Assembly: GCF_038443385.1 (NCBI RefSeq)
Contig: NZ_CP151726.1
Location: forward strand, 7,006,001 to 7,070,000
From: Stieleria varia
Lineage (GTDB): Bacteria; Planctomycetota; Planctomycetia; Pirellulales; Pirellulaceae
Direction: 5' to 3'
Length of the DNA stretch: 64,000 bases
Positions 9,166-41,500 of the stretch are shown piece by piece; positions within the stretch are counted from its first letter, which is position 1; the number at the start of each line of letters is the position of its first letter. The notes under the pieces are model-generated. The model saw nothing but the letters and a program-made list of their open reading frames with translations. It searched no databases and had not been told where the DNA came from. Position numbers and translations under genes: made by a program.

Positions 9166-10055
9166 AATCCGACGATGGTTCTTCGCTGAGTTTGGCCGAT
9201 TGGTCGCACCGAGCGCGACCACGAATCGCCATCTTGGGCGCTCCCAATCGCGATCGCGTGCGAATGGAACTGGAGCGTTTGCGGCCAGTGATCGCAGCCC
9301 AGGCCGACATCGTCGCTGAAGACCTCGCGTTTGAACATGATTTCTCAACCACCGAGCAAGATCTGGTCATCGTGCTCGGTGGCGACGGTTCGATCCTGCA
9401 AGCCGCTCGACAGATGGGTGTGAATCAAACACCGGTCTTAGGAATCAATTGTGGACGCCTGGGATTCTTGGCGGCTCTGTCGCCAGATGATTTCCTCTCG
9501 ATCTGGCCCGTGGTCTGCGACGGTGAGTTTCAAGTCGTTGATCATTTGATGTTGCGGATCGAATTGATTCGATTACATGATGGTGAGAAAACGATCAGCG
9601 AACAATTGGCACTCAACGAAGTTGCCGTGTTGGGCGGACCGCCCTACAGGATCTTGGACATTGATCTGTACGCCGATGGGTTCTTGGCGACTCGTTACCG
9701 GTGCGACGGTTTGATCATCGCAACACCGGTCGGTTCGACAGCGCACAATCTGTCCGCGGGTGGCCCGATCTTACGACGCAATTTGCAGGCCATGGTGATC
9801 TCGCCGATCAGTCCCCACACGCTGACCTATCGACCATTGGTGGATTCCGCCGACACGGTGTTTGAGCTGACCGTGATCGAGCCCAACGAATCGACCAGCG
9901 TGGTCGTGGACGGACGCATTCTGAGCCAGTTGCTGCCAGGCGATCGAATCCGAGTGGGACGCGCCGAACAATCGTTCCGAATGTTGAGCGTCCCCGGCCA
10001 AAACGATTTCCGCACCCTGCGAGACAAACTCGGCTGGGGCGGCTCGGTGTCATAA
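9162..10055 (+). CDS. nadK: NAD kinase
   Basis: This enzyme phosphorylates NAD to NADP using ATP or polyphosphate. GGDGS (residues 73-77), the NE motif in LALNEVAVLGG, and the glycine-rich TPVGSTAHNLSAGGPI segment are the standard NAD kinase signatures. The length of 297 residues is normal. The ATG overlaps the dxs stop codon (ATGA), so it is the last gene of the xseB-ispA-dxs-nadK cluster; NADPH is needed later in the MEP pathway, which makes the grouping sensible. Confidence 0.93.
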   Translation: MKSDDGSSLSLADWSHRARPRIAILGAPNRDRVRMELERLRPVIAAQADIVAEDLAFEHDFSTTEQDLVIVLGGDGSILQAARQMGVNQTPVLGINCGRLGFLAALSPDDFLSIWPVVCDGEFQVVDHLMLRIELIRLHDGEKTISEQLALNEVAVLGGPPYRILDIDLYADGFLATRYRCDGLIIATPVGSTAHNLSAGGPILRRNLQAMVISPISPHTLTYRPLVDSADTVFELTVIEPNESTSVVVDGRILSQLLPGDRIRVGRAEQSFRMLSVPGQNDFRTLRDKLGWGGSVS

Positions 10056-10082
10056 GGCGAGAGATAGAAGGAAACTGACCTG

Positions 10083-10147
10083 TAGTGGACGAGGTTTCGA
10101 GTCCTCGGCATGGTCATTCGCTCCAGGGACTCGTTCCCTCGTCCACG
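10083..10147. repeat. Inverted repeat after nadK
   Basis: GTGGACGAGG at the left pairs with CCTCGTCCAC at the right across about 45 bases that include a second short pair (GAGTCC and GGGACTC). It sits between the convergent genes nadK and fhcC and may act as a terminator for either, although no T-run follows. Confidence 0.6.
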
Positions 10148-10172
10148 ATGTGATCTACCGCTCGCCTAACGT

Positions 10173-10943
10173 TCACCCCGGCATCAATATCTCACCTTGT
10201 CCGCCCACGCAACGATCGCCACGGACTCGCGTGCAATCGACGACCAACTGGTCAATCAGCTTGTCCGATCGATGTGAAGCGGGAACGAAGGGACGCAATA
10301 GTTTCAAGAACGATGCGTTGAATCGTACGGGACGCGAGAACCGCGGTTGCGGCCAAGATCGCTCGTCAGGTTTTGCAACGATCAACGTCCCTCGTTGCAT
10401 GGCCAGTCCCGACCCGGCTCCGAAGTCACCCGCCACAATGATCGTTCCCGCAATCATCGCTCCTCCCAAGTGATCGCCGACGTTGCCGTTGATCCAAACG
10501 GTGCCACGACGCATTCGATGTCCAGCGAAATGCCCGGCATCACCATCGACGACCAGTCGACCACCAGTCATTCCCAATCGATGCCCTCCAGCGGGCGCAG
10601 CAAGATGGTTGCCCACACTGCCAGCCACGTGAAGCGTTCCGCCTGACATCCGTGAACCCACGTGATCACCGGCATCACCATCGATGACGAATTCCCCGGA
10701 GTCATGTCCGGTTCCCAGTCCATGCACGCTGGTCAATTCGCCTGCGACCACGATCTGATCTACATGGGACGCTTGATGGGTCACTTGAAAAACATCTGCC
10801 AGCGCTAGCGTTCGCCCGTCGACCAAGATCGGAATCCGCTCCACGTCCTTGGGTGACATCGCCTGCAACTGTTGATGTTGAATCACGGATCCGTCGACGG
10901 GTTCTTCGCTGCGAGATCTCAGTTGAAATCGCCAAGTGCTCAT
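10173..10943 (-). CDS. fhcC: Formylmethanofuran dehydrogenase subunit C-like protein
   Basis: FhcC is a subunit of the formyltransferase/hydrolase complex used in tetrahydromethanopterin (H4MPT) linked formaldehyde oxidation. The 256-residue protein shows the diagnostic run of glycine-rich repeats (GDAGDHVGSRMSGGTLHVAG, then GDAGHFAGHRMRRGTVWING and GNVGDHLGGAMIAGTIIVAG) that forms a right-handed beta-helix, as in FwdC and the alpha-domain of glutamate synthase. Its ATG overlaps the fhcD stop by four bases. It is the last gene of the minus-strand fhcA-fhcD-fhcC operon. Confidence 0.9.
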   Translation of the reverse strand: MSTWRFQLRSRSEEPVDGSVIQHQQLQAMSPKDVERIPILVDGRTLALADVFQVTHQASHVDQIVVAGELTSVHGLGTGHDSGEFVIDGDAGDHVGSRMSGGTLHVAGSVGNHLAAPAGGHRLGMTGGRLVVDGDAGHFAGHRMRRGTVWINGNVGDHLGGAMIAGTIIVAGDFGAGSGLAMQRGTLIVAKPDERSWPQPRFSRPVRFNASFLKLLRPFVPASHRSDKLIDQLVVDCTRVRGDRCVGGQGEILMPG

Positions 10944-11899
10944 TTCAAAATCTCCGCGAGCTTGAAATGATGCCGGCCAAGTTTCCCGCCATAGTTACCG
11001 GCCGTGACACGCAGCAATCCGTTTCCTCCACCGGCGTCGCAGGCCGCATGGATGCCAACCCGCATCGCATCGGCGATCAGATCGAACGACATCCCATCGA
11101 TCACCACTTCCAGGACCGCACGAATGTCGTCTGACAACGCCGATTGGTCCGATGCCGAATCTCCAGTCGAGTTTGCCTTTGGCGGCCAGCCCAATAAAGC
11201 AGGGCTATACGCTTCGTTTGTCGATGCCATCAGTGTCTTGTATTTGGATCCGACCTTCGATCCGCTGCGGGTAGCTCCGCCGGGGAACGGAGTGATCACG
11301 CCGGGCAGGTCTTTGATCGCGGCGACGGCCGCGCGGCAGGCCGACGTGGCCGCTCGCATCGAGTCGGCCATCAGCAAAAAGTTTCCGCCGCCGATTCCAT
11401 CGACTCGTCCCACGTCGTGGGCGCACAGGAATTCACCGTCCATCACGGGGACTCGCCAGAAACGTTGTCCGCCGATGATCTTGCTGATTTGATGCCCGTC
11501 ACCGAAATACCGCAGTGTCTTTCCCAACGGAATGCGTTTCGGGAGCGTCGCGGCGTCGCCATCGATACCGGCAAACAGAGCGGTGGTCGGACAGGTCAGG
11601 ACACACTGGCCGGCACGGACCGGGATCTGCTTTTCCAGTTCGCTTCCCGAGACAGCGAACGCGAGAATCGCGACACCCGGTCGACCGTCTGGGGTCTGGT
11701 TGGGTTGCAAACGGCGCTCGACATCGATTTCGATCTTGCAAGCGATCACGCTGGTGCCAAAACCCGTCATCGCCGCAGCGGCCTCGTCGGCCCACTGCTG
11801 ATCGTCGGCGGTGATGATGATTCGGGTCGCCTTCATGTCAAAGGCTTCCGCAAACGTCGCTTCGATTTCGACACCATTGATTTGCAAGGACTCGCTCAT
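10940..11899 (-). CDS. fhcD: Formylmethanofuran--tetrahydromethanopterin formyltransferase
   Basis: FhcD (Ftr) transfers the formyl group between H4MPT and the methanofuran-type cofactor. Conserved blocks include FAEAFDMKATRIIITA near the start, CPTTALFAGI, FGDGHQISK, and GGGNFLLMADS, all fitting the Ftr family; the 319-residue length is slightly above the archaeal ~297. The start ATG at 11899 overlaps the fhcA stop codon by four bases; longer upstream frames run into fhcA and are not credible. In bacteria this enzyme occurs in methylotrophs and in planctomycetes, which is the strongest taxonomic hint in the window. Confidence 0.93.
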   Translation of the reverse strand: MSESLQINGVEIEATFAEAFDMKATRIIITADDQQWADEAAAAMTGFGTSVIACKIEIDVERRLQPNQTPDGRPGVAILAFAVSGSELEKQIPVRAGQCVLTCPTTALFAGIDGDAATLPKRIPLGKTLRYFGDGHQISKIIGGQRFWRVPVMDGEFLCAHDVGRVDGIGGGNFLLMADSMRAATSACRAAVAAIKDLPGVITPFPGGATRSGSKVGSKYKTLMASTNEAYSPALLGWPPKANSTGDSASDQSALSDDIRAVLEVVIDGMSFDLIADAMRVGIHAACDAGGGNGLLRVTAGNYGGKLGRHHFKLAEILK

Positions 11900-13581
11900 C
11901 GCGATCGCTCCCTCAATTTCGTCGCGATGTCCTGGCACCTCAACGACTCGTTCCATTCGCAATCGGAGATCGCCAACCGATTCATTGCAAACGTGCCATT
12001 GTCGCGGTACATCCGTTGAAACTGTTTGACCGAATCGGCGTCATACCGCACGTCCGCGACCAGTGCAGGGTGCAATTCCGGTTTGCTGATCGGCGGATCG
12101 AGAGCCACACCGCCTGAACGCACCAAACGGCCACCGGAGATCACATGCAGTGGGCGAGAAAACATCGTTTCTAAATTCGAGTCGATTTGATAGACCGCGA
12201 TGTCGGCAACCGCTCCAACTGCCAAATGACCTCGGTCGGACAAGCCCAGAATGCGTGCCGGCCCTTGACGCGTCATGATCGCGATGTCGTTCAAACTGTA
12301 CTGGCGGTCGATGCCGCCGAGCTGACTGCTGGCCGCGGCGTCGACTTGAATCTCCGCCAAAGCCGTTTCTCGAAAACTGCGGTCGCCCAATAATCTCAAC
12401 AGGTGCGGGTAGGTCGTGAAGGGTGCCCCGTTGGGATGATCGGTCGTCAAAAACACACGAGACGGATCGTCGATCATCAAAAACAGTTCCAATCCGATTG
12501 CCCACTGCAGCGAGTGGACAAATTGCTTGCGACGATACCGAAACGGGACCACCCCGCAACCGGCTTCGCATTCAATATCCACCAACGCCGTCTTGCGTGG
12601 CTTGGCGTGTCGCCGATTCTCGTATTGGTGCATCGAGTCGGCACTGATCGTGACTGTTTGACCAAACATGATTTGCCCGACGTCAATGGTGACGTTGGGA
12701 TGCCGATTCATCGCATCGACCAATCGGGTCGCGGCGGACGACATGCCGTATGCACCGTCATCGCCATAGCAATGAAACTGAGCGTGCGTCAGATGGATCG
12801 GCAACCCGTCGGCCGCTGCGATTGTTGCCAAGGTCGAGCGAATGTTTCCCGGAACTCCTAAGTTGCTGCAATGAACATGCAGCGGATGAACGAGGCCGAT
12901 TTCATGAACGGCACGGCACAGCGTCCGAATGATCTGACCGGGCGTGACTCCGTAATGGGGATGCGGAGTATCGACATCCATTTCCCGAACGCCAAATTTG
13001 AACGCGTTGATGCCACCCGGATTGACGACCTTGACCGCGATGCATCGAGTCGCGGCGACCATCCATGCCACATAGTCGTTGATCAGTGACTGCGGCGAGT
13101 CGGCTGCGATCAAACGCATCAGCACATCGTCGTTGCCGAGTAAGCAGTATCCGCCGGTGGTCAAACCATCCAGTTGAGACATTTCCGCATGCGAGGCGCG
13201 AGCATTGCAGGGGATCACCGCCGGTTCGAAACAGGTCGTGTACCCCATGTCCAGATACCGACCAGCGGTTTGCGTGACCGTCGGCAGAAACCGCTCCACC
13301 GGATTGTCAATAGCGGCCTCAACGGGTGGAACGACAATTGAGTCGTCGTCGTTGAGCAACATCCTGGCGAGACTCAGCTTGCCGCCGCCGATATGCGTAT
13401 GAATGTCGATCCCACCAGCCATGACGACACAACCATCGGCATGCAGGATGCGATCCGCGGCGCCGGTGTCAACCAACGACCCGGAGTCGATGATCCGATT
13501 GTCTTTGATCCATAGATCGGCGATTCGATCGATACCGGTTGCCGGATCCAGAATTCGGCCGCCGGTGATTACCATCAACAT
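11896..13581 (-). CDS. fhcA: Formylmethanofuran dehydrogenase subunit A-like hydrolase
   Basis: FhcA is the amidohydrolase subunit that releases formate from the formyl-cofactor. The metal-binding motifs are visible: HTH in GGIDIHTHIGGGK, a Lys in AVKVVNPGGINAFKFG that matches the carboxylated lysine of this superfamily, HVHCSNLG, HAQFHCYG, and the Asp in TTDHPNGAPF. The length of 561 residues is normal. It is the first gene of fhcA-fhcD-fhcC, with ATGA overlaps between genes. fhcB, which completes the complex in methylotrophs, is not in this window. Confidence 0.93.
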   Translation of the reverse strand: MLMVITGGRILDPATGIDRIADLWIKDNRIIDSGSLVDTGAADRILHADGCVVMAGGIDIHTHIGGGKLSLARMLLNDDDSIVVPPVEAAIDNPVERFLPTVTQTAGRYLDMGYTTCFEPAVIPCNARASHAEMSQLDGLTTGGYCLLGNDDVLMRLIAADSPQSLINDYVAWMVAATRCIAVKVVNPGGINAFKFGVREMDVDTPHPHYGVTPGQIIRTLCRAVHEIGLVHPLHVHCSNLGVPGNIRSTLATIAAADGLPIHLTHAQFHCYGDDGAYGMSSAATRLVDAMNRHPNVTIDVGQIMFGQTVTISADSMHQYENRRHAKPRKTALVDIECEAGCGVVPFRYRRKQFVHSLQWAIGLELFLMIDDPSRVFLTTDHPNGAPFTTYPHLLRLLGDRSFRETALAEIQVDAAASSQLGGIDRQYSLNDIAIMTRQGPARILGLSDRGHLAVGAVADIAVYQIDSNLETMFSRPLHVISGGRLVRSGGVALDPPISKPELHPALVADVRYDADSVKQFQRMYRDNGTFAMNRLAISDCEWNESLRCQDIATKLRERSR

Positions 13582-23950: not shown

Positions 23951-26900
23951 CTACTCGGTGCCACTGACCGCAAGATTAAAGTTGCGAATCGTCGGCGGCT
24001 TTTGGGTCGTCGGATGTTGTTGGCCATCGGTCAACTCGCGAACGCGTTCGGCGATGCTCAGTTCCAGTTCGGTGATCGAGATGTATCCATCACCGGTCTG
24101 GTCGGTCTCTTTCTTTCGCATCGCCTCCAAGAACGCGTACGTGAAAGCGCCGTGCCCCCACTCGTCACGCTCCAAGCTTTCTTCCTGGACGGTGCTGCTG
24201 GCAAACATGATCGCGCCCACTTCGCTGGACACCAGGTCGGCCCAAGGGTCACGAAGCGATTTTGCGCCGCGAGTCGAGCCGCTGTGGCAGGTGTCGGCAA
24301 ACAACAGGATCTTGCACGGCATTTCTTGAACCATGCGTTCGATTTCGGTGTAAGACAGCGCCGTGGCCCTCAGGCGTTCGGCATCGGTCTCGTGGTTGCA
24401 GAAGTAAAAGTTCTTACGCGAGTCGACTTCGCCATGTCCACTGATGAACACGACCGCAATGTCGTTTTGCGTGACGCTCCGATAGAGCCAGTCCATGCCG
24501 TCCTGAATCGCCGAACGCGTGGCACCTGCATCCGTCAGAATCTTGGTTTCGACTTCACGATAGAATTTCCCCTCCTGCGATTTGAACGCGGCGGCAAACG
24601 CAGTTGCATCCTTGGCGGCAAACTGCAGGTCGTAGTCATCGATCAAGTAGTCAGCAACGCCGATTGCCAGTACGAACATCTTGGGTTTGATGACGTCTGA
24701 TGTGTCCCCGCCTTGTCGGGTCAAACTGACAACGCTGGGAGAGCTGCTGGCGGCCGAGTTGGTGGCAATCGCTGTGATATCCGTGCGTCCTTCTGGCAAC
24801 GCGATGGTGTGAACGAGGGTCATGCTGCCGTCGTCGTTTTGCTGGGGCTTGGGCAAAACGCCGGTCGGTGGCCGCCCGTTGACCAACAGCACCACGGATT
24901 TGACCGGCAAGTTGTTTTGCGGCGTCGCGACGATCGTCAGTTTGATCTTATCGCCAGCAACTTGACCGTCCTCGGGTGCTCCCTGGATGGCGACGGTCGG
25001 TGGCAAAATGCTCTGAAAGCTTTCTTGATTTCGCAAGTCGAGAGTCGGCGATGCGATCGCATTGGGGAGCCGAGGCTCATCACTAACAACTTTGTTCAAA
25101 TCAGGGCGTGCGCCATCGGGATCTCCGTTCAAGATCGCCTCGATGACTTGGTCGATCACATCGGGGCGATAGAGCGTCTGACGAAGTTGTCGAGCGCTGA
25201 AAAAGTTGGCGGTCTCATCCGGTCCTCGATTGACCTTCCAGCCGATCAAGTCGTGCCCACCCAATGAAGCGTCGTAGTAGCCTTCTGGGGTGAAGAGAAT
25301 CCAGTCACCACGTTTGGTGGTAAAGAACGTCAACACGGGTTGTACATAAGACCCCGATGGGACACCGTTGCCGAGCAATGTCACGGGGATCACCACTTCC
25401 TGGTCTCCACGAAGAATCGTCAAATCCAGGACGTCACCAGGCTCATTGCCGTCTTGCATGTTCATGAACTGACCGGCAAAGGCAAAGGGCATGGAGCCGT
25501 TGATGCCACTGATGATGTCGCCGACACGCAGATCGCCGACCGCGTTTTGGTCGTAGATTTCTGACACGCGCCAATTGGCATAGTGGCTGAACTCCGTTCC
25601 CGAACCGGTGGGCACCGCAGCGTAGGGTGTTCTGCCCAGCGTTCGCGTTTCAAAGTCGCTCTTGCGATAGATGCAAACCGATCCGTCGGTCCATGCCGCG
25701 GTCACGAATCGATCGTCTTTCGTCAGGTTGACGTCGGAGGCGACCGACGATTTTTCGATGCTACCCGCCGCAACCGAATTTCCGCGGCCGGGAACACCTG
25801 GTCGGGGATTGATGGCACCGATCTTGATCGCGTCGGCCACCAGCGACACCGAACCGCCACGAAACATCATGACTTCATTGTCGTGATTGCCTTTCGCCAG
25901 GGTGTATGTAAAGAATGGTTTGACGAATGGGGTCGTCGCAAAGTCTTCTTGGCCTGCCGCAACGACGTTGACAAACTGCCCCTTGTCGTTCCGCATTCGC
26001 GTGGTCGTCACGCCGTACAAAGTCGTCTTTGCACGAGGGAAATCGCCCTCGGGTGATTCGATCAAGCGTCGGTTGCGGAGATCAAATCCATCCTTGAGTT
26101 TCGCGTAGTCATTGAATTTCCAGTCCGCGCCCGAATTGGGACGATTTCCAAACGCCAGAATACCTTTGCTTTGATCCAGAGAGGCGGCGTACATGGAATC
26201 GGCAATGGATTTGGATCGAAAGATCGGTTTCCCGGTCGCAGAATCCAACACGTACACGTTCCCCAACGCGTCACCCACCGCGACTCGCTGGCCGTCATAC
26301 GAAACCTTGACGTCCGACGGTGCCCACAAGAGACCTTTGTAGCTGGCGGTCGGAGATGCGTTCTCGCCGCTGAAGATGTCGCACTGGTAGTAGTCACGGC
26401 CATTCTTTTTCGCCGAGTATGCGACCGCGAACTTGCGTTTCTGCACATCGCCATGTCCATGCCCTACGAATCCATCCACATTTTGGTAATACTGTTCTAC
26501 GCGATCCTCCAGGCGACCGTACCATTGCAATTCAGGACTCGCATCGTAGGAAACCGATTCGTCGGCAACAGCGTCGTAGGCTTCTCCAAAGAAAGGCTGG
26601 ATGTAGTAGCGATTGCTGCCGAAAAAGAATCCGGCTTGCGGCAAAGTGGACGTTCCGAACAGTTCGTCGTAACCCTCCCCTTCCTCCAACTCTGTCACGG
26701 GTTCTGACAGCAGCATCTCATCTTTTTCCCAATCAAACAACATGTAAGAGCTGCCAAGCCCGAACCCGTTCTCTCCGGGAGTAAGGTAGGTCGAAACAAA
26801 CGCCAAGTACTTGCCGTCGCCGCTGAAGGTCAAGTGTCGCGCGGAGCGTTTTCCGACCGTCACGCCGTTGCCGAGTTGACCGGGCACCTCGGGATTGCCC

Positions 26901-27355
26901 CAATATCCGGCCGTGACATCCAGATTGTCCAAAGCACAGGTTCTGACGTACGATCCATGTTCGGTCAAAACCGCGACCGCAAGGTAGTTGTTTTGCGGAT
27001 CGACCGCGAGCGACGTGATGATCCCCGAGTCTTCCTTTGAAAAACCGCGAATCGTGTGATACAACTCGCCCGTTTCGACTTCCCAAATTCGGATATCAGA
27101 ATCGGTGCTCGCACCGACGTATTGACCGTCGCCGCTGAACGCGATCGCCCGAATCTGACTGTTGAACGCTCCCGTCTCGATCAGCAATCGAGGCTTGGAA
27201 TTCAAGTCCGCAGGCGCCGCCGACTCCTCGACTTCGTTTCCACTGGAATCCCCCCCTGCGATCGCAATCTGCGCCCGAGCGGTCGAAACACCAATGACGG
27301 TCACCGAAAACAAAGCGGCAAAGGTCCAGATCAAACGCATATGATTATTCCTCAT
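23951..27355 (-). CDS. Exported WD40-like/PDZ-like/caspase-fold protein
   Basis: An 1134-residue protein with a signal peptide (ending ARAQ). The N-terminal half has WD40-like blades (AFSGDGQYVGASTDSDIRIW; DVKVSYDGQRVAVGDALGNVYVLD). A PDZ-like segment sits near 600-665 (AVGDLRVGDIISGINGSMPF). The C-terminal ~245 residues are a caspase (peptidase C14) domain with His in VVFISGHGE (about 973) and Cys in FADTCHSGS (about 1021). Inside this domain, near 1086, DQTGDGYISITEL resembles an EF-hand calcium loop. The role is unknown; a regulated protease is likely. It lies 153 bases from a second caspase-like gene on the same strand. Confidence 0.85.
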   Translation of the reverse strand: MRNNHMRLIWTFAALFSVTVIGVSTARAQIAIAGGDSSGNEVEESAAPADLNSKPRLLIETGAFNSQIRAIAFSGDGQYVGASTDSDIRIWEVETGELYHTIRGFSKEDSGIITSLAVDPQNNYLAVAVLTEHGSYVRTCALDNLDVTAGYWGNPEVPGQLGNGVTVGKRSARHLTFSGDGKYLAFVSTYLTPGENGFGLGSSYMLFDWEKDEMLLSEPVTELEEGEGYDELFGTSTLPQAGFFFGSNRYYIQPFFGEAYDAVADESVSYDASPELQWYGRLEDRVEQYYQNVDGFVGHGHGDVQKRKFAVAYSAKKNGRDYYQCDIFSGENASPTASYKGLLWAPSDVKVSYDGQRVAVGDALGNVYVLDSATGKPIFRSKSIADSMYAASLDQSKGILAFGNRPNSGADWKFNDYAKLKDGFDLRNRRLIESPEGDFPRAKTTLYGVTTTRMRNDKGQFVNVVAAGQEDFATTPFVKPFFTYTLAKGNHDNEVMMFRGGSVSLVADAIKIGAINPRPGVPGRGNSVAAGSIEKSSVASDVNLTKDDRFVTAAWTDGSVCIYRKSDFETRTLGRTPYAAVPTGSGTEFSHYANWRVSEIYDQNAVGDLRVGDIISGINGSMPFAFAGQFMNMQDGNEPGDVLDLTILRGDQEVVIPVTLLGNGVPSGSYVQPVLTFFTTKRGDWILFTPEGYYDASLGGHDLIGWKVNRGPDETANFFSARQLRQTLYRPDVIDQVIEAILNGDPDGARPDLNKVVSDEPRLPNAIASPTLDLRNQESFQSILPPTVAIQGAPEDGQVAGDKIKLTIVATPQNNLPVKSVVLLVNGRPPTGVLPKPQQNDDGSMTLVHTIALPEGRTDITAIATNSAASSSPSVVSLTRQGGDTSDVIKPKMFVLAIGVADYLIDDYDLQFAAKDATAFAAAFKSQEGKFYREVETKILTDAGATRSAIQDGMDWLYRSVTQNDIAVVFISGHGEVDSRKNFYFCNHETDAERLRATALSYTEIERMVQEMPCKILLFADTCHSGSTRGAKSLRDPWADLVSSEVGAIMFASSTVQEESLERDEWGHGAFTYAFLEAMRKKETDQTGDGYISITELELSIAERVRELTDGQQHPTTQKPPTIRNFNLAVSGTE

Positions 27356-27508: not shown

Positions 27509-29734
27509 CTACTCGCTTTTCCAGCTTATCAACTTCGCCGTCCACCATGGATCTTTAGGTTTGCTGATCGATTTGCTGCCAAGCGTTTTTGTTCCGCTCG
27601 CCCGCTGGGTCACCCGAAACAATTGCGAAAGGTTAGGCGGTTGGTCGGAAACGATTATCAGTGCGCGGTGGACGCCGTCTTGCGGTGCCTTGAAATCTGG
27701 GTGATTCCGGGGCAACAGACTGTCTCCATTGCAAACAAATGATCGCGTCAGCAACCCGTCTGGCATCGAGATCCGCTGCTGATCCGGATCCGTCGCCGTG
27801 AATTCCGTCGGACACATCACGGCCATTTCGAACGCAGGATCGATGTGGATCACGCTGGCGTAGAGCAAGCGTGATCGCGCGCGGGGATCGCTGATCTGCA
27901 ACGCGTAGACGTCTCCTGTTTTCAGAGTAGGCAACCCGTCGGCCGCTGGTGTAACAGGCGAGAACTTGTATTGTCCGTCCACGATCCCCCCAACGACCAA
28001 CTCGACCTGCAATGGTTCGCTTTCTTGACTCGTTCGATTTTCGCTGAGAAGCATCGAGGCAAACTGCTCGGTCGCCACCAGTCTCTGGACCAGCTCCTGT
28101 GCCTTGCTCGCAAACGTCCCGTCTCTCGCGATCACATGACTTGTGGACGAACCATCCTCCGCACTCGCATGACTGATCACCCGACTGATCACCATTTGCC
28201 GGTCATCAAGATGGATTGAATGCTGCGTTTGCGAAGACTGACCGACGTAGTTGATCTGAGAATGACGAAGCTCGGGGAGCTGACGCAAGATCTCATCGGG
28301 CGACTCGCCCTGGGAGTTAGTCAAAGCAATGGAAAGCGAATCGCTGGATGCACTGGCCGGTCTGATCTCACACCAAAAACCGTTCTTTGTCGGCGGCTGT
28401 TGATTGCCTGACCATGTGATCAATCCGCGAGACTGCGACACGCCGACACGAGTGAACTCGATTTCACCAACCGCTGCACCGCTGGTCGTTTCCAAAGAAT
28501 CCAATACAGGAAATCGGTCCCCGACGCGGACCGAGTCCAGAATGCCCGCGTTGACGGTGACGTCGCCGCTGGAGCCGATCACGATCGGGGCGAATCGTCG
28601 TTCGGAAGCAGGACGCACGAACAAAACATTGGACGTCGCTATCGCTCCCGACATCTCCAATTGCGGCTCAGGGCTGGTCTGCAGCTTTGCCAGTTCTTTG
28701 TATTGTCGTTTCAATTCATCGGAGAGTTTGTCGAGCTGCACGGTTGTTGCCGTTGCATTTTGCGTGGCGATTCGGCACACCCAGTAAGTCAACAGTCCGT
28801 ACGGTTCACCATCAGCGTCGTACTCGGGCTCCAACTGATCCGAACGACATGCCGAAATCACCGCCGCGCCGACTGGCAACGCAGCGGGGCGGGCGATCGG
28901 AGCGAACCGATCCTGCTGGGGTGACGGCAGCGTTCGATCCAGTCGGCGATATCGTTTCAGGCCCCGCAAGCCGGTGCCGCTGTGGCAGCAATCCAGCACC
29001 ACGAACAAACGATTTCTTGGATTCGCAGCGATGTCACACGCCCATTGATGCAACTGATCGTCACGAATGTCCTTCTCACCGCCGACCTTTTCGGCATCGT
29101 ACGGCACGAGGGTTTGGTCGTAGAAATTCGGCTCGTCACGCAGCGGCCCCGACATTTGGTCGAGAACTTGTGAGCCGTGTCCACTGTAATGCAGCACCAC
29201 CTGGGCGGCTTTGCCCGAGCGATTGCATTGCAGCACCCGCTGCTGCAACAAGTCAAGCTCCCGCGTGATGCCCTCACGCGTCGCCTGTGCGTCGGTCAGC
29301 GTGACAATGGATTCGTCCTCAAACCCCGAGTGCACCGTCAGCAGTTGACGCATCAGCTCCACGTCGTTGAGACATCCACGTAGCTGCTCGGATGCCTTGA
29401 GCTTGGGGTACTGATTGATTCCGATCAGCAAAGCAAAGCGGCATCGATCATCAGCGACGGAGACGCGGTCAGTTGCTCGTGGGGCGGTTTGTGGGAGCTG
29501 GGCAGACGCCTTCGGAGAATATCCGCCCACCGCCGCGAAGATCATCACCAAGCACGTGAGCACTCTTTCATGCAGCGATCGCCCTCTCTGCCCGGCCCAG
29601 CGAGGTGCGCCGGGAAAGCAGAATGCAGAAACGGCTACGACGAACAAACAAAGCCTGGGAGGGGTGGCAACGACGGGATTTCGCAACGGGCGGGGCTCCG
29701 GGGGGGGGCGTGGTGACACAGCATGGTTCTCCAT
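27509..29734 (-). CDS. Metacaspase-like caspase family protein
   Basis: The 741-residue protein has a caspase-fold domain near its N-terminus: RFALLIGINQYPKL, then the catalytic His in LHYSGHGSQ (about 185) and Cys in VLDCCHSGTG (about 246), the usual metacaspase dyad. The remaining ~400 residues have beta-rich segments, including DSVRVGDRFPVLD and LKTGDVYALQISDP, of no recognised family. Export is likely (SPKASAQLPQ follows a hydrophobic stretch), but the start is uncertain: the first ~57 residues are Pro/Arg-rich and a GTG at that point would give a normal signal peptide. It is upstream of the WD40-like caspase gene and may share its transcript. Confidence 0.85.
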   Translation of the reverse strand: MENHAVSPRPPPEPRPLRNPVVATPPRLCLFVVAVSAFCFPGAPRWAGQRGRSLHERVLTCLVMIFAAVGGYSPKASAQLPQTAPRATDRVSVADDRCRFALLIGINQYPKLKASEQLRGCLNDVELMRQLLTVHSGFEDESIVTLTDAQATREGITRELDLLQQRVLQCNRSGKAAQVVLHYSGHGSQVLDQMSGPLRDEPNFYDQTLVPYDAEKVGGEKDIRDDQLHQWACDIAANPRNRLFVVLDCCHSGTGLRGLKRYRRLDRTLPSPQQDRFAPIARPAALPVGAAVISACRSDQLEPEYDADGEPYGLLTYWVCRIATQNATATTVQLDKLSDELKRQYKELAKLQTSPEPQLEMSGAIATSNVLFVRPASERRFAPIVIGSSGDVTVNAGILDSVRVGDRFPVLDSLETTSGAAVGEIEFTRVGVSQSRGLITWSGNQQPPTKNGFWCEIRPASASSDSLSIALTNSQGESPDEILRQLPELRHSQINYVGQSSQTQHSIHLDDRQMVISRVISHASAEDGSSTSHVIARDGTFASKAQELVQRLVATEQFASMLLSENRTSQESEPLQVELVVGGIVDGQYKFSPVTPAADGLPTLKTGDVYALQISDPRARSRLLYASVIHIDPAFEMAVMCPTEFTATDPDQQRISMPDGLLTRSFVCNGDSLLPRNHPDFKAPQDGVHRALIIVSDQPPNLSQLFRVTQRASGTKTLGSKSISKPKDPWWTAKLISWKSE

Positions 29735-35289: not shown

Positions 35290-36225
35290 CTAAAGATTGT
35301 CGACCGGCGATGGGATGTCTTGGAACGACAGGACCAGGACCATCTGCTGTTCCACTCGTCCGGCATCTTCGCCACTGAGCATCAGTCGACCCAGCCCACG
35401 CCGCGGCAATGTTTCGCCGATGACGAACACATCGTTTTCGCCACCGGTGAGCGAAAAATGCAACGGATCCAGTGTCCAGGCATCGCGACGCGTGTCGATC
35501 CTGAGCGCCGAATCACTGCTGGTCCAGCGTTGTCGCATCGCGCCGTGTTGAATCTCCGGAACCAATTGCAATTCGATCTCCCGTGAACTCTTGCCGCGAT
35601 TGGCGGTCATCGCGAACAGGAACTGCGGTTCGTCCAAGGAGCGTCCGATCACTTGGTCGTCATATCGGACCAGCGGAGTCAGCGCGCCCTCGACGGGCAA
35701 TCGAACAGGAAACTCGTAGCGTTTGCCCATACGAAGCGGGATCCTGTCCTTACCTGCCGGGTTTTCGCTGGCAACATCTGCCTTGACTAAGAACTCAGTG
35801 ACCTCATCAGTCGACGTTGGTTGACTCAACTCCGTCAGCTTGGACTCAAACCGTCCCGACTCGGTAACGCGGCCAACGCGAATGCCATTCTCCAACAGCA
35901 TGCGTCGTTGCTCTGCTGGGATGACCGTCTCGTCCGTCCACTGCCACAGTGACTCGACGTGATCCGGGTTCTTGCTGTCAACGTTCAACGGCACGAATCG
36001 TGTCGCCAAAATCATTGACTGTCGACTCTTGTGAACCTGTGGCTCCGCCGGACCGGCTTGCGTCAACGAAGTACGTTCCGACCAGGACGCGCATCCGCAA
36101 ACAAGGATCACCGAAAGCGATCCAAGACACATCAAGACGGTTGTGTTGAATGTTTTTGCCAAGCGAAAGCGTCGATAGAACGTCAGCCTTTTCAGGCTGA
36201 CACGAATACAGATCCAGTAACCCAC
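35290..36225 (-). CDS. Putative lipoprotein of unknown function
   Basis: A 311-residue protein with a hydrophobic segment followed by a lipobox-like LVCGC near residue 45, suggesting a lipid-anchored envelope protein. The body has conserved-looking segments (RFVPLNVDSKNPDHVESLWQ; LPRRGLGRLMLSGEDAG) that I do not recognise. The start is uncertain: the annotated one gives a long basic N-region, and ATG near residue 32 would give a shorter signal. It is divergent from the large ATPase gene. Confidence 0.65.
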   Translation of the reverse strand: MGYWICIRVSLKRLTFYRRFRLAKTFNTTVLMCLGSLSVILVCGCASWSERTSLTQAGPAEPQVHKSRQSMILATRFVPLNVDSKNPDHVESLWQWTDETVIPAEQRRMLLENGIRVGRVTESGRFESKLTELSQPTSTDEVTEFLVKADVASENPAGKDRIPLRMGKRYEFPVRLPVEGALTPLVRYDDQVIGRSLDEPQFLFAMTANRGKSSREIELQLVPEIQHGAMRQRWTSSDSALRIDTRRDAWTLDPLHFSLTGGENDVFVIGETLPRRGLGRLMLSGEDAGRVEQQMVLVLSFQDIPSPVDNL

Positions 36226-36516
36226 AAAGCCAGACTTTTGTACCGATAAACCGATTGCACGTTAGACAGACGGCGTTTTCCGCGTCAACGGCGATCACCA
36301 TCAGTCGATTTGCTAGCTTATGGTCGTTTGGCTCGGAAACACGTGTTTCACAATTCCTCTTTCCGTGAAACTGACAGTTCACTAAATTCGCCGCTGTACC
36401 CCGCATCTGCGAACACTTGAGCAACCGGACCCGAATGCTCACAGCGACATCACATCGTCGTTGATCAGACAATGGTGTTTGCAACTAGAAACACGTGGCC
36501 ATGGAGGAGCCTGATC
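36226..36516. other. Intergenic region upstream of the large ATPase gene
   Basis: This 291-base divergent spacer should hold promoters for both neighbours. It ends in GGAGG at 36503-36507, nine bases before the ATG at 36517, a stronger ribosome binding site than most genes here have. No repeat is seen. Confidence 0.5.
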
Positions 36517-39500
36517 ATGCTGCTGGATCGCATCGATATTGATAGTCACGGACCGCTCAATCGAGTAGAGTTGGGACCGTTTGCCGAGCATCTCAACGTG
36601 GTCACCGGTCCTGAGGGATCAGGCAAGACGGCGATTGCCCGGTTCATTCGTGACTCGCTCATCCACCGCGAGTACCCGCTTGGAATGATGAGTTCATCTA
36701 CCGGACGTGTCGTCTGGGCGGACGTCAACGGTCGCCTGCATTGCCGTCGCGAAAAGGACGGTACATCAACCGGACGCCGGACGGTGGAGTTCGAATCTCG
36801 CGGCGACTCCGCCTACGGATACGACGGGCTCAGAGGCAGTTGGCTTGCCGCTGCCTCAGGCTCCACCGATGCCACCCGAGCACTGCAATCACTACGTGTG
36901 CCCGAATCGCTGATCGATGGCGTCGTCGTCGATACCGCGATCAGCAGTGTGACGCGAGTGGTTGCCGCATGCATTCGTAGCGGATTGGACACGCAAGAAT
37001 TTTACCGCGATCTGCCGGCGAATTCATCGTCAATGCACCAATGCCGAAACGGGCAACTCGGTTCGGAGTCGAAAGAATCGGATGAACGACGCAAGCTGAG
37101 GGACGAGCTGGCGAGAGTGGAAGCCGAATTGGCTCGCTCGAGTCAGCATGGCGAGCATGTCGGGCCGAGCACGACGGAACATGAGCGTCTGACCGCTCGT
37201 CGAAACGAATTGTCACGCCGCCTGGCCAATCACAGCAAGTCCGATTCTCCGCGTCCCGTGCCGCCGACGCGGCAGCACTCTGCGGAATACATGCAGTGGA
37301 GCCATCGACTGGAGCAGTTGCATGATCGCATCTGGAATCTGCAAGTCGAACAAAACGAGCTGAGACGCTGGATCGATTACCTTGATGCCGATCGTCAACG
37401 TTTTGCAACCAGCGAAGCATCGTTGCGAAGCCGATATGCCGCGGATGGTCTGCCGGTCGATTCCTATCAAGCCGTTCGCGCGCTGCGTGATGACGCGCGG
37501 TTGCGATCACAGCTGCAAGAAATCGATGTCCAAGTCTTACGGTGGCGTCGTGTCCTGGCAGAAATTCGTGGGCTGCAGGAAGCCGCACTTGCCAGCCGCC
37601 AGAACCATCCCGCCGGTTGGTATGGCTTGCGTTACCCTGGTGACCCGACGGAAACTCGACGCAACCGAATGGAGCAGTTCATTCGATCGCTGGACCATCA
37701 TGGCGAACGAAATCAATGGGATGACTATTATCGACATTCAGGTACGAGCGGCATCGACGAGATTGACGCACGTATCGAAGCAGCGTTGCGACAACTGGAT
37801 GGATTGGTCCGCCAGTACGCCGGGAACCGCGATCTAGACTTTGCCGCCACTGACGCCCCTATTTGGAACGCGTCTTGGTACCGCGGGGTGACGCCGGTGC
37901 ACGGACGCGGCGAGAATGCAACGTTGGTGGATACCCTACGATCGATCCGCTCGGACTTGGAAAACGCACGACAACACGGATTCCGGTACGACGGAGTCGA
38001 CCGCAACGCCACGGAATCGATGCTTTCGGCGACCGCGGAACGGCAACGCCAGCGTCGCGAGTCGGAACTCTACGACTTGGGGCGATGCGAACGATGGCTG
38101 GTCGGTTCAATCGAGCAACTGCTTTCGCATCGAGAGTCTTTGATTCGCCAATACGACTTTGCTGATCAACTTCGCTATCCGGCTTGGGGATCGAACACTC
38201 GGTACACGGAACACGGCGACGGCCAGTACTCCGACTGGTACTTGCTGCATCTGCAACGCGAAGGTGATTTGCGTCGGGCGGACCATCAACGCGTGACGGC
38301 GGAACTGGAACGATGCTTGGATGAAGCAGCGTCGATCCGTCGCTCCATGCGGGGCTTGCCGGTTGTCGCTCAGTGGAATGATGTGACGTCGCACTTGGAC
38401 TCGGAGATCTGGATTGATCGCGAAGCCATTTTGACGGAGTTGCGGGACATCGACCGACGATTGGCCGGTCACTCGCGGACACGCTGGTTGCGAAACCGCC
38501 GCGCGGAGCTGATCGATCGTCTTGGCGTGCCTCACACCAGAGACACTTATCAAGAGATCTCTCCCTTGGCGACAGAGGCCAGTCAGTGGCTGGTACGTTT
38601 GTCCGCCGGGCGTCTGCGGCAGGTCAACTGGGATCGCAATGCGGTTCAATGGTCGCGCACGAACGAGCCTGCCAACGGCAACGTTTCCTACGGCCGAGTT
38701 TTGATCGACGGACGCGACGAAGCGACATGCTCTGGTGTCGATCGAGCCCTGGCGTCATTGGCTGTTCGCATGGCTGCAGCGGATCTGTTGGAGGGGGCAG
38801 GACGAAGCCTGCCGCTTGTAATCGAAACACACCGAGAATTATTGACTCAAGAAACCGTTGCGTCAGGCGAATTCCGCGGCGATGGGTACCTGCCCGCTTC
38901 ACTGCGAAATCATGACATCGACGGACGCGGTGCCTTGGCATTGGTCGCGGCACTGCAGGATTTTGTCACTCAAGGACGCCAGGTCATCTTGTTGACCAGC
39001 AGTGAAGCGTTGACACATCAAGTCATCAAAGCCGGTGCTCGTTCCTTTCGATTGCAAGCCGACCGAATCGTTCATCCCCACCGTCCCATCTGGCGTCCTC
39101 ATTATGCGTCGGAAACCTATGTCGGTCCGTACGCACACACCTACGGTGACCACGTGGCCACTGGCCCCGCGTCGTTCGTCGACAACTATCACGATCATTT
39201 TGTCGATGCGCCGCCAGTACCATCGCCGCCAGTACCATCGCCGGTTGCGCCGCTCCGTCGGCCGGCCTTTCGTCCTGCTGCGTTGTCTCCCAATGCTCCG
39301 GCCGCGGACATCAATCGCAACTTCGACATGGCTTGGCGAGAAGCCTACGGGTTGTACGACAACCCCGAGAGACCGGCGCCTCCCGTCAGCCAGCATCCTG
39401 AATGGATCGACGGATATTACTTTGCCGATGCCTACACCACGTCACCGAGATCGCGTGACATGGTGATGAATGACTCGGCAAATGGCGTCGCGGCAAGCGG

Positions 39501-41136
39501 CTCCGTGTTTGGCATGCGAGACACCGTGTTTACCACTGCGGGGGAATCGCAACAGATCTCCCAAAGCATCGCTGCTCGCGGATTGGCTCGGCCGACATCG
39601 CCGTTTTTCTTGACCGTCGACAGCCCGATCGACCAAGCTCCATCGGTCGATGCGGTCGCGGCGGCTCGTCTGAGAGGACTGAGTGTCACTCACGTGAACC
39701 ACTTGATGCAACAAGACCCCAACCGATTGGCCGATGCGTTGGGCTTGGCGAACGTCGACGCCGCTACGGTCCGACGTTGGCAATCCGAATGTCGGCTTGT
39801 GTGCCACGTCCCGCAATTGCGAGGATTCGACGCTCGCGTGTTGGTGGGATGCGGCATCACCAACCCTGCCCAACTGGCATCGACAAACCCAGTCGAGCTG
39901 CTCGAACGCGTCGAGTCGTTCCTGGCAACCGCTGACGGACAACGAATCTTGCTCAGTGGAACCAGTTACGAGCTGTCTCGCATCACAAGCTGGATCGCCG
40001 CAGCCAACCGGAATGCTTTGGATCCGGATACCGTACGATACTACGACACTCGTACCATTGATGGTCGGGTGCTGAAAGCACGCGGTGTGATCGGAGATCA
40101 CGACAGCGATCGATATGAGTATCGGTTCGACGACGACGGTAATGAGATCGTGTATCCCTCATTTGAGCAGCAGCGAAACCGAGCACGACGCCGCGAAATC
40201 TTGCGAGCTCGACGTAACCGCTCCCAATCCAACTACGGCATCCGAAATGTTGCCGGAGACGACCGCGACGTAAGCGGAACGGGAGGCTATGCAGCCGGAA
40301 ACGGAAATGGTTTTGGAAACGGATTCGGCAGGCCCAACCGGGCGACGGGCAACTCAGTGTCCAGCTCGGGACTCGGAAACGGATCTCGAAATGGCTCAGG
40401 AAGCGGCTCAGGAAATGGCAACGGTTCCGGAAGTGGTTACGGATCGGGTGCCGGCAACGGGCAGGCTCGCTCCAATGGATCGCGCAGATCAAGCGAGAGA
40501 GGAGAGCGAACGCCACGTCAGTACGTCAGTCTGCCAAACGATGCATCGGTCGAGAGCGAATACCGACGTGCAGAACGACCTGAGCGAGAATCCCGTGAAG
40601 CTCGCCAAGCTCGTGAGTCTCGCGACACCCGCGAAGGACGCAGGTCGCGTGAGGATCGCGATCGACGCGAACGCTCATCGAGTGACTCCGAGCGTGAGTT
40701 GCGATTCTATTTGGCGAGAAACAGTCCCATCGTTGATGCACCCTCGATCGGATCTCGGATGGCTGCCCGCCTGGAGGCTGTCGGAATCTATACCGTCGAT
40801 GACTTGCTCAACGCGGACGCCGATGCGTTGGCGGCGGAGTTGGATCACCGTCGGATCGACGCCAGCGTGATCACGGCTTGGCAGCAACAAGCTACCTTGG
40901 TGTGCCGCATTCCGATGCTGCGGGGCCATGACGCTCAGTTGCTGGTCGCGGCCGAGATCACGACGGCTGAGGAAGTCGCTTCGCAGGACCCGCAGGAGCT
41001 GCTGTCTCTGGTCACTCCGGTCGCGCGGAGCAACGAGGGCAAGCGAATCCTACGTGGCAGCAAGAGTCCAGACTTGGAGGAAGTCACCGAGTGGATCGAG
41101 TGCGCCTCGCAAAACCGCGAGCTGGTCGCCGCATAG
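36517..41136 (+). CDS. SMC/YhaN-like ATPase fused to two HhH (DUF4332-like) modules
   Basis: A 1539-residue protein. Walker A is GPEGSGKT (31-38) after an SMC/RecF-like beta strand; coiled-coil segments follow (about 180-420 and 500-680). The C-terminal ATPase half appears near 735-770 (SGVDRALASLAVRMAAADLL, then LPLVIETHREL), where Walker B is degenerate. A Pro-rich linker leads to a first helix-hairpin-helix module (about 1037-1170), a Gly/Asn/Ser-rich and Arg/Glu-rich linker (about 1245-1395), and a second module (about 1401-1539) with matching motifs (PQLRGFDARVLVGCGIT; PMLRGHDAQLLVAAEIT). The start at 36517 has GGAGG upstream. A DNA-related role is inferred, not shown. Confidence 0.8.
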   Translation: MLLDRIDIDSHGPLNRVELGPFAEHLNVVTGPEGSGKTAIARFIRDSLIHREYPLGMMSSSTGRVVWADVNGRLHCRREKDGTSTGRRTVEFESRGDSAYGYDGLRGSWLAAASGSTDATRALQSLRVPESLIDGVVVDTAISSVTRVVAACIRSGLDTQEFYRDLPANSSSMHQCRNGQLGSESKESDERRKLRDELARVEAELARSSQHGEHVGPSTTEHERLTARRNELSRRLANHSKSDSPRPVPPTRQHSAEYMQWSHRLEQLHDRIWNLQVEQNELRRWIDYLDADRQRFATSEASLRSRYAADGLPVDSYQAVRALRDDARLRSQLQEIDVQVLRWRRVLAEIRGLQEAALASRQNHPAGWYGLRYPGDPTETRRNRMEQFIRSLDHHGERNQWDDYYRHSGTSGIDEIDARIEAALRQLDGLVRQYAGNRDLDFAATDAPIWNASWYRGVTPVHGRGENATLVDTLRSIRSDLENARQHGFRYDGVDRNATESMLSATAERQRQRRESELYDLGRCERWLVGSIEQLLSHRESLIRQYDFADQLRYPAWGSNTRYTEHGDGQYSDWYLLHLQREGDLRRADHQRVTAELERCLDEAASIRRSMRGLPVVAQWNDVTSHLDSEIWIDREAILTELRDIDRRLAGHSRTRWLRNRRAELIDRLGVPHTRDTYQEISPLATEASQWLVRLSAGRLRQVNWDRNAVQWSRTNEPANGNVSYGRVLIDGRDEATCSGVDRALASLAVRMAAADLLEGAGRSLPLVIETHRELLTQETVASGEFRGDGYLPASLRNHDIDGRGALALVAALQDFVTQGRQVILLTSSEALTHQVIKAGARSFRLQADRIVHPHRPIWRPHYASETYVGPYAHTYGDHVATGPASFVDNYHDHFVDAPPVPSPPVPSPVAPLRRPAFRPAALSPNAPAADINRNFDMAWREAYGLYDNPERPAPPVSQHPEWIDGYYFADAYTTSPRSRDMVMNDSANGVAASGSVFGMRDTVFTTAGESQQISQSIAARGLARPTSPFFLTVDSPIDQAPSVDAVAAARLRGLSVTHVNHLMQQDPNRLADALGLANVDAATVRRWQSECRLVCHVPQLRGFDARVLVGCGITNPAQLASTNPVELLERVESFLATADGQRILLSGTSYELSRITSWIAAANRNALDPDTVRYYDTRTIDGRVLKARGVIGDHDSDRYEYRFDDDGNEIVYPSFEQQRNRARRREILRARRNRSQSNYGIRNVAGDDRDVSGTGGYAAGNGNGFGNGFGRPNRATGNSVSSSGLGNGSRNGSGSGSGNGNGSGSGYGSGAGNGQARSNGSRRSSERGERTPRQYVSLPNDASVESEYRRAERPERESREARQARESRDTREGRRSREDRDRRERSSSDSERELRFYLARNSPIVDAPSIGSRMAARLEAVGIYTVDDLLNADADALAAELDHRRIDASVITAWQQQATLVCRIPMLRGHDAQLLVAAEITTAEEVASQDPQELLSLVTPVARSNEGKRILRGSKSPDLEEVTEWIECASQNRELVAA

Positions 41137-41190
41137 GGCTGGGCTGTTCAGATTTGGTGTTGGCATTGTTTTTTCAGTCCATGTTTTCGT

Positions 41191-41500
41191 TCCATGCATC
41201 GCAATCAAAGTGAGCCTCAGGCGCTAGCCGTGGGCCGGCGCCACAATCCGCATCGGGCCCACGTCTAGCGCCTGAGGCACTGGACGCCACCAGTTGTTGG
41301 TTCCATGCATCGCAATCAAAGTGAGCCTTAGGCGCTAGCCGTGGGCCGGCGCCACAATCCGCATCGGGCCCACGGCTAGCGCCTGAGGCACTGGACGCCA
41401 CCAGTTGTTGGTTCCATGCATCGCAATCAAAGTGAGGCGCTAGCCGTGGGCCGGCGCCACATCCGCATCGGGCCCACGGCTAGCGCCTGAGGCTCACTGG
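41191..41500. repeat. 111-bp tandem repeat, about 2.8 copies, each with a palindrome
   Basis: TCCATGCATCGCAATCAAAG starts copies at 41191, 41302 and 41413, a period of 111. Each unit has GGCGCTAGCCGTGGGCC facing GGGCCCACGGCTAGCGCC. Copies differ at a few bases and by small deletions (the third lacks a few). The unit is the central part of the 227-bp element family. Confidence 0.85.

Follow-up and report, generated by a model that had tools for sequence, protein, structure and literature searches.

ATPases of the Rad50/SbcC, YhaN and SMC types are the closest described relatives of the protein treated here, P0001, which is encoded at positions 36517-41136 on the forward strand of a window of 64,000 nucleotides (the whole stretch of DNA that was analysed; Stieleria varia, Planctomycetota, Pirellulaceae; assembly GCF_038443385.1, contig NZ_CP151726.1, positions 7,006,001 to 7,070,000). 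The genome that carries P0001, 9.72 Mb in one contig, itself supplies controls for these systems. For its ATPases of the AAA_23/AAA_27 kind we use the name YhaN, which we take to be the fitting label; in YhaN_b (from 973287) the motifs GPNEAGKT, LSRGTR, LPLVLDD and FTCHEH are kept, in YhaN_a GPNESGKS, MSLGT, VPVVIDD and LFTHHEH, and in the SMC of the same genome GPNGSGKS, LSGGEK, CVLDE and VTHS (the C-lobe motifs of all three were read by eye). A Metallophos gene directly adjoins both YhaN_a and YhaN_b. The fourth control, L153 (1140 residues; own genome 9320800-9325800), has a stretch FNWGTFDG ahead of its Walker A motif, which is reminiscent of MukB/JetC-like proteins. The second constituent of P0001, the domain DUF4332 (PF14229), is to our knowledge without known function.

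Here we report that the architecture of P0001 is real and conserved and is built from known parts. Combining the motif, conservation and structure data, we suggest that P0001 is a former SbcC/YhaN-type ATPase that has turned into a nucleotide-binding scaffold with its DUF4332 modules as the output and with an Ala-Ala tail that may be controlled by ClpXP. We give this reading, which is drawn from sequence comparison, a probability of about 0.5.

Architecture and distribution of P0001

P0001 is a single frame of 1539 codons without internal stop. The longest version of the open reading frame (ORF) begins at 36472, and several homologues show similar in-frame sequence upstream of the ATG at 36517; we favor the latter start because a ribosome-binding-site-like GGAGGAG lies at 36503-36509 (+), 7 bases before it, and because the N-termini of the homologues align from its Met. 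Reading along the forward strand, the N-lobe of the ATPase head (residues 1-165; 36517-37011) with the Walker A motif GPEGSGKT (residues 31-38; 36607-36630) is followed by a helical arm (residues 178-683; 37048-38565), the C-lobe of the head (residues 684-855; 38566-39081), a variable spacer in which the alignment reveals conserved pieces such as DINRxxDxxWREAYG and DGYYFADxYTT (residues 870-1025; 39124-39591), DUF4332 module 1 (residues 1030-1166; 39604-40014), a low-complexity linker (residues 1167-1394; 40015-40698), DUF4332 module 2 (residues 1395-1532; 40699-41112) and a C-terminal tail, NRELVAA (41113-41133). An earlier note, made from the DNA alone, had described this anatomy of Walker A motif, arm, second ATPase half and two modules, and it is borne out by the frame, Pfam and the family profile. 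The module bounds that it gave (residues 1037-1170 and 1401-1539) were right within a few residues of the Pfam matches at 39652-40011 and 40741-41112, its assignment of the modules to DUF4332-type helix-hairpin-helix (HhH) domains stands, as both pass the Pfam cut-off and the identity to the module of a relative described below supports it, and the composition of the linker agrees with the change that it noticed from Gly/Asn/Ser-rich to Arg/Glu-rich (Arg/Glu/Ser-rich in our delimitation).

The layout recurs in the collected relatives and is not due to chance. P0001 matches 26 of the 40 genomes in the relatives set and at least 79 of 100 sampled genomes of the family (both counts include its own genome and paralogues with DUF4332 only), and all 13 same-genus genomes searched match. 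The 63 proteins compared below are P0001 and those from 22 and 40 further loci; they were picked for long frames from these matching genomes, several of which were not fetched. Sixty of the 61 proteins with a genome assignment come from the window's own family and one (L046) from another family of the same order; relatives with a name belong to Aporhodopirellula aestuarii and to Rhodopirellula rubra. Across the phylum, the module profile finds a match in 10 of 59 sampled genomes, among them the own genome and two classmates from another order with long ATPases (G149, G173); the other seven gave two frames of 160 and 218 residues and five weak partial matches (E 3e-5 to 2e-4). The P0001 family looks vertical and chromosomal. 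A mobile-element reading was rejected because P0001 has no match in plasmid or phage collections, in which records very near the window may be absent.

The alignments comprised 18 of 23 proteins (A1), eight proteins with arbitrary C-terminal cuts (A2) and 71 of 110 listed module stretches (A3). In two relatives, L126 and L129, the alignment is limited to 44 and 47 residues of module 1. In L032 (7565-11869) a frame break, either real or a sequencing error, interrupts the last module, the rest of which lies in a separate ORF of 102 residues (11827-12135).

The ATPase head and its motor motifs

Taken alone, the head of P0001 is weak in Pfam (AAA_23 E 0.0047, 18.0 bits against a cut-off of 27), and AAA_23 reaches E ≤ 0.01 in 5 of 18 aligned family members, all 18 of which match DUF4332. 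The profile of these 18 members matches Smc chains (best E 1.1e-6) and Rad50 (E 2.1e-6), mostly over the arm and the C-lobe, as well as the Smc N-lobe at E 0.0012, with coiled-coil proteins of different kinds also among its matches. The C-lobe is delimited by the match to that of Rad50 and by alignment to YhaN-like relatives, and the division of the head into two lobes by the helical arm is seen in alignment, model and profile alike. Three relatives (L045, L111 and L116) exceed the AAA_23/AAA_27 cut-offs outright, as does L168, and 37 of the 63 members match an own-genome control ATPase by blastp, 34 of them best to YhaN_b. Foldseek, used with the low-confidence head model discussed below, gave chains of Rad50, Smc5/6 and MukB as its top matches (E 4.3e-7 to 1.6e-4), at TM-scores (template modelling scores) of about 0.2 or less, which is weak support at most. 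The sequence of P0001 has no CxxC zinc hook as in Rad50, its Pfam matches include no SMC hinge, and the NCBIfam model SMC_prok_A gives 11.4 against a cut-off of 729.4. By the family profile and the intermediates, the head is of the Rad50/SbcC/YhaN type by descent.

Two relatives from outside the order are candidates for such intermediates. L168 (1245 residues) aligns with YhaN_b over 1152 columns (26%, E 1e-85), has intact motifs (GPNETGKS, LSSGT, LDD and FTCH) and bears a single DUF4332 module, which shares 33% and 41% identity with the two of P0001; between this module and the C-terminus of YhaN_b there is a short similarity that is not significant (E 0.076). A gene for 447 residues (L170 2824-4167 (+)) overlaps that for L168 (664-4401 (+)) by 4 bases. 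Its product has no Pfam match at E ≤ 0.001 and is related to the phosphoesterase partner of YhaN_b (23%, E 2e-15), with HASN and TGN where that partner has HASD and SGD; this putative nuclease may be altered too, because Asp residues of the metal motif have apparently become Asn. L167 (1117 residues) combines an intact P-loop, LSRGT and LDE with two DUF4332 modules, and its upstream neighbour (323 residues) has no Pfam match at E ≤ 0.01. In the motif alignment of L167 and L168, YhaN_a aligned badly and was ignored. Judged by its sequence, L168 is likely an intermediate between YhaN-type ATPases and the P0001 type, and the order of events, on an unrooted comparison, would be the gain of a module by an SbcC-type ATPase, followed by duplication of the module and loss of the partner and then by catalytic decay.

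To compare the motor motifs, fixed patterns were scored on the 63-row alignment, and a tree was built by a quick method from 60 of the 63 proteins (L032, L126 and L129 were left out; three branches are long). The window clade has 25 members, that is, a supported clade of 24 rows and L032, which was placed by hand. All 25 have the Gly-Lys of the P-loop, and none has the Walker B Asp, the catalytic acid or the signature motif. In P0001 the degenerate Walker B motif reads PLVIET (residues 766-771; 38812-38829) where YhaN_b has PLVLDD, with Thr in place of the catalytic acid and with Glu 770 in place of the Asp, the latter exchange being found in 25 of 25 clade members; CSGVDR (residues 738-743; 38728-38745) stands where LSxG is expected, and no clade member matches [LIV][SN]xG. 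P0001 also lacks the switch His that the own-genome YhaN-like ATPases keep. Among the other 38 members Gly-Lys is found in 25, the Walker B Asp in 15, the catalytic acid in 23 and the signature in 9. Gly-Lys is thus present in 50 of the 63 proteins and lost in 13, and its loss looks repeated because the 12 of these in the tree require at least 9 state changes.

By these patterns the motor of the window clade looks degenerate, with its hydrolysis motifs lost. With regard to the SMC-like engine proposed in the earlier note, the SMC/YhaN-like descent holds, given the Smc and Rad50 matches of the profile and the relatives that pass AAA_23/AAA_27, whereas the engine is doubtful, since P0001 lacks both Walker B acids, the signature and the switch His, and relatives have lost the Lys or the arm. 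The Pfam search, a check that the note had suggested, leaves the head below the AAA_23 cut-off, and it is the intermediates and the family profile that place it; of the AlphaFold models, likewise suggested, that of the head is poor and that of module 2 confident.

Conservation, selection and the arm

Over the 63 sequences, median pairwise identity is highest in module 2 (0.51), followed by module 1 (0.38), the N-lobe (0.26), the C-lobe (0.24), the linker (0.19) and the arm (0.18, over 190-680); within a genus set of 12 members it is highest in the N-lobe (0.88) and in module 1 (0.87), with module 2 at 0.75. Ten pairs were compared by the ratio of nonsynonymous to synonymous substitution rates (dN/dS). 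The N-lobe has 0.00-0.04 in eight of them and 0.08 in the other two, and module 1 has 0.00-0.02 in eight and 0.10-0.12 in the remaining two. For the arm eight pairs can be computed, seven of them at 0.10-0.22 and one (L112/L113) at 0.04; the computable values of module 2 are 0.03-0.17 and those of spacer and linker 0.11-0.40. The ratios are rough or meaningless where dS is saturated (infinite, in several cells) or exceeds 1 (most cells of four pairs). These values indicate that P0001 is under purifying selection, the nucleotide-binding lobe included, and because the N-lobe is also under selection, we prefer a head that binds but hardly hydrolyses ATP over a dead one.

The arm, for which the low-confidence model has long helices, has been lost in one relative of the same genus: in L042, from a one-contig genome, 17 residues separate the lobes, compared with 506 in P0001. 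The L042 protein (8718-11396 (-); 892 residues) keeps both head lobes, the P-loop and both modules.

DUF4332 modules, linker and tail

P0001 matches DUF4332 with 125.1 bits (cut-off 23.2; E 2.3e-36) over two stretches of 94.7 and 42.6 bits, and HHH_5 and Cdd1 matches lie inside module 2. The model of module 2 is a confident tandem of two HhH units (predicted local distance difference test, pLDDT, 95.2). With this model Foldseek returned nothing at E ≤ 0.001, and VIA-align gave as its top row the C-terminal domain of NusA (Z 6.8, root-mean-square deviation 2.5, 69 residues), with another NusA row at Z 6.2 (66 residues) and RAD51-family N-domains at Z 6.0-6.4; no Z for module 2 reached 8, and values below 8 may reflect a common arrangement only. 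With no Foldseek match and no Z of 8 or more, the fold of module 2 does not point to a partner. By sequence, the nearest solved chains to the modules are Y-family polymerases (Pol IV/iota; E 3.9e-4).

The linker is net basic (+8), module 1 is near neutral, and module 2 is net acidic (-8 in P0001; family median -5, range -16 to +12). From its sequence, the acidic module 2 does not favour gripping of DNA, without excluding DNA binding. Module 2 of the 13 members printed retains APSIG or APTIG as well as LRGHDAQ or near variants, and at the position of the Gly module 1 has Asp in most cases; because of this difference between the motifs, the two modules may have different jobs. A precedent for protein docking by an HhH fold is NusA AR2, which binds the C-terminal domain of the RNA polymerase alpha subunit (alphaCTD) and SuhB (PMC6614801).

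The tail of P0001 sits past the last helix of the module-2 model. An Ala-Ala end is found in 54 of the 63 proteins and a final Ala in 59, and L167 and L168 both end in LRAA; Ala-Ala ends occur in 12 of 414 other ORFs and in 2 of 145 among the longer ones (some perhaps not genes). A di-alanine, which ClpX reads, is the usual end of SsrA tags (PMC9601184). In the own genome the transfer-messenger RNA (tmRNA) tag is ADENLALAA, and by analogy the tail of P0001 can fairly be regarded as a putative built-in ClpXP degron. Of the 18 shorter paralogues with DUF4332, which include two from the own genome, 10 end in Ala-Ala and 14 in Ala, and the lengths behind the module differ. These paralogues (L002 and L003, own genome 8655103 and 9432208, and L135-L150) often have an Ala-rich C-terminus; in the four scanned, Zn_dep_PLPC passes its cut-off in L002, L003 and L143 and lies just under it in L137, and the other 14 have 498-588 residues.

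Neighbouring genes

The lipoprotein-like divergent gene at 35290-36225 (-), with a lipobox read by eye and no Pfam match, has a similar ORF in 12 of 22 loci and is the only element of gene order that the window shares with relatives. The earlier note had proposed a check of whether homologues keep the architecture and the neighbours: the layout is kept, and the neighbours are little shared beyond this gene; alphaCTD-like and membrane-protein ORFs that lie downstream in relatives are not present in the window. Among 15 scanned window neighbours of P0001 there is no Metallophos/SbcD/Mre11-like phosphoesterase.

Directly 3' of the gene lies a tandem array (41189-41493) of a 111-base unit in 2.8 copies with 95% match; by eye the unit appears partly palindromic. 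Two adjacent genes at 23951-27355 (-) and 27509-29734 (-) encode Peptidase_C14 caspase domains (Pfam E 2.2e-16 and 2.9e-20), one of them together with WD40-like repeats. Elsewhere in the genome, a 452-residue frame (2740226-2740669) has two alphaCTD domains, and a separate 380-residue frame with one alphaCTD is probably rpoA.

Discussion

In the model that we propose, the head of P0001 would still bind ATP via its P-loop and might dimerise, hydrolysing ATP slowly or not at all, while the arm would serve as a fast-evolving spacer and the pair of DUF4332 (tandem HhH) modules, borne on a basic low-complexity tether, would be the output that docks protein or nucleic acid partners. The Ala-Ala C-terminus, which resembles the tmRNA tag, may let ClpXP set the level of P0001. 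The protein would thus act as a tether or adaptor and not as a loop-extruding or DNA-moving motor. More tentatively, and as a possibility rather than an expectation, we suggest that an ATPase of an SbcC/YhaN nuclease complex was converted stepwise into a scaffold with a NusA-like HhH pair and a built-in tmRNA-like degron for ClpXP: one module with the partner would have come first, then two modules without it, followed by loss of the motor motifs and, in one lineage, of the arm.

Several observations weigh against the scaffold model. At E ≤ 1e-3, blastp links P0001 to none of the four control ATPases of its own genome, and only 4 of the 25 window-clade members match them, the other 20 and P0001 giving none; because P0001 and most clade members lack a direct match, the YhaN kinship of the clade rests on the intermediates. 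The AlphaFold model of residues 1-883, made from an 8-row alignment, is poor (pLDDT 52.9). The control L153, which fits the patterns for Walker A and Walker B, fails that for the signature, so that failure at the signature alone is weak evidence. A His is found in the switch window of 5 of the 25 clade members. Outside the clade the fixed patterns overstate the motif decay: they are strict, all four tests (Gly-Lys, both Walker B acids and signature) being passed by only 1 of 63 proteins, and 7 of the 38 non-clade members have Asn at the place of the Walker B Asp, which was scored as missing. The Glu at that place could still bind Mg2+, and, given the Glu and the strict conservation of the N-lobe, slow hydrolysis of ATP by P0001 appears possible. 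No partner for the modules was found, and the Ala-Ala tail might have a structural role or be a C-terminal motif of another kind.

Alternatively, P0001 is an active SMC-like motor with non-canonical catalysis, in which Glu 770 stands in for the Walker B Asp, another residue acts as the base, and an arm-linked dimer cycled by ATP bridges DNA sites via the HhH modules, much as the SMC-like engine of the earlier note might hold two DNA sites apart. The Walker A Gly-Lys and the Glu at 770, both invariant in the 25 clade members, the slow evolution of the N-lobe, the basic linker and the HhH folds of DNA-handling proteins (Pol IV/iota, RAD51 family), to which the modules are closest in sequence and, along with others, in fold, are consistent with such a motor. 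However, the signature and the catalytic acid are missing throughout the clade, a same-genus relative (L042) does without the arm, Gly-Lys is missing in 13 of the 63 proteins and module 2 is net acidic, so that we consider an active motor unlikely.

Somewhat less likely still is a transcription- or RNA-linked adaptor, in which NusA AR1-AR2-like modules would bind the alphaCTD of RNA polymerase or the stand-alone alphaCTD-like protein of relatives. The top VIA-align row and the binding of alphaCTD by NusA AR2 point in this direction, and in 9 of 22 loci (L030, L031, L034, L036 and L038-L042) the gene has a stand-alone alphaCTD-like ORF (PF03118 E 4.4e-20) no more than about 2.1 kb away. In the window genome, however, the lone alphaCTD frame, of 95 residues, is at 4556807 and away from P0001, the RAD51-family domains come within 1 Z of NusA at values that may mean a common arrangement only, and the NusA-repeat model TIGR01954 gives P0001 17.1 bits against a cut-off of 48.15.

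We regard an anti-phage defence ATPase of the Lamassu or Septu kind as highly improbable. PADLOC models do match the P-loop end weakly (LmuB E 2.1e-5; PtuA E 7.3e-4), and both Peptidase_C14 genes, 7-13 kb from P0001, match the PADLOC caspase model (E 9.1e-22 and 1.5e-9); but the best-matching stretches of P0001 are confined to some 23-66 residues around Walker A, no PADLOC model matches any of the 8 nearer neighbours scanned, which thus include no cognate partner gene, plasmid and phage matches are lacking while 13 of 13 same-genus genomes have a match, and genes for GatC, L28 and SAICAR synthetase are nearby. That the gene is drifting towards a relic whose conservation is an ancestral leftover, as the repeated motif loss and the interrupted last module of L032 might suggest, is scarcely credible and is largely refuted by dN/dS, the highest computable value being at most 0.41 in any segment and at most 0.13 in module 1 and the N-lobe (the long frames do not count as evidence, the relatives having been chosen for them).

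If the scaffold model is correct, P0001 and its relatives would be a case of Rad50/SMC superfamily pseudo-enzymes whose intermediates survive, and such a case would be unusual. The family holds DUF4332 members with full motor motifs, without the catalytic residues, without the P-loop lysine and, once, without the arm, and because such graded members exist, the contribution of the motor is directly testable. The family also offers an entry point to DUF4332, a name that a full-text search met in a single paper, where it stands in a legend.

Comparison with known systems

The earlier note knew of no described system with the layout of P0001, and none was met in the literature searched, the scope of which mostly excluded subscription papers; the parts themselves are known. 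P0001 shares with SbcC/Rad50 and YhaN-type ATPases the two-lobed P-loop head divided by a helical arm and differs from them in that the window clade lacks the Walker B Asp, the catalytic acid and the signature, in its C-terminal DUF4332 modules and in having no phosphoesterase among the scanned neighbours. With SMC proteins of the condensin type it has in common the head-arm-head layout and the matches of the family profile to Smc chains, whereas the same genome has a separate true SMC (929.8 bits) and the Pfam matches of P0001 include no hinge. Module 2 may resemble NusA AR1-AR2 in its tandem HhH fold, at a Z of 6.8 that is below the level of kinship, while TIGR01954 stays far under its cut-off and neither S1 nor KH is among the Pfam matches. 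Finally, both modules score above the family cut-off of DUF4332, and this domain, which in two own-genome paralogues stands behind a Zn_dep_PLPC domain, is here carried twice on an ATPase.

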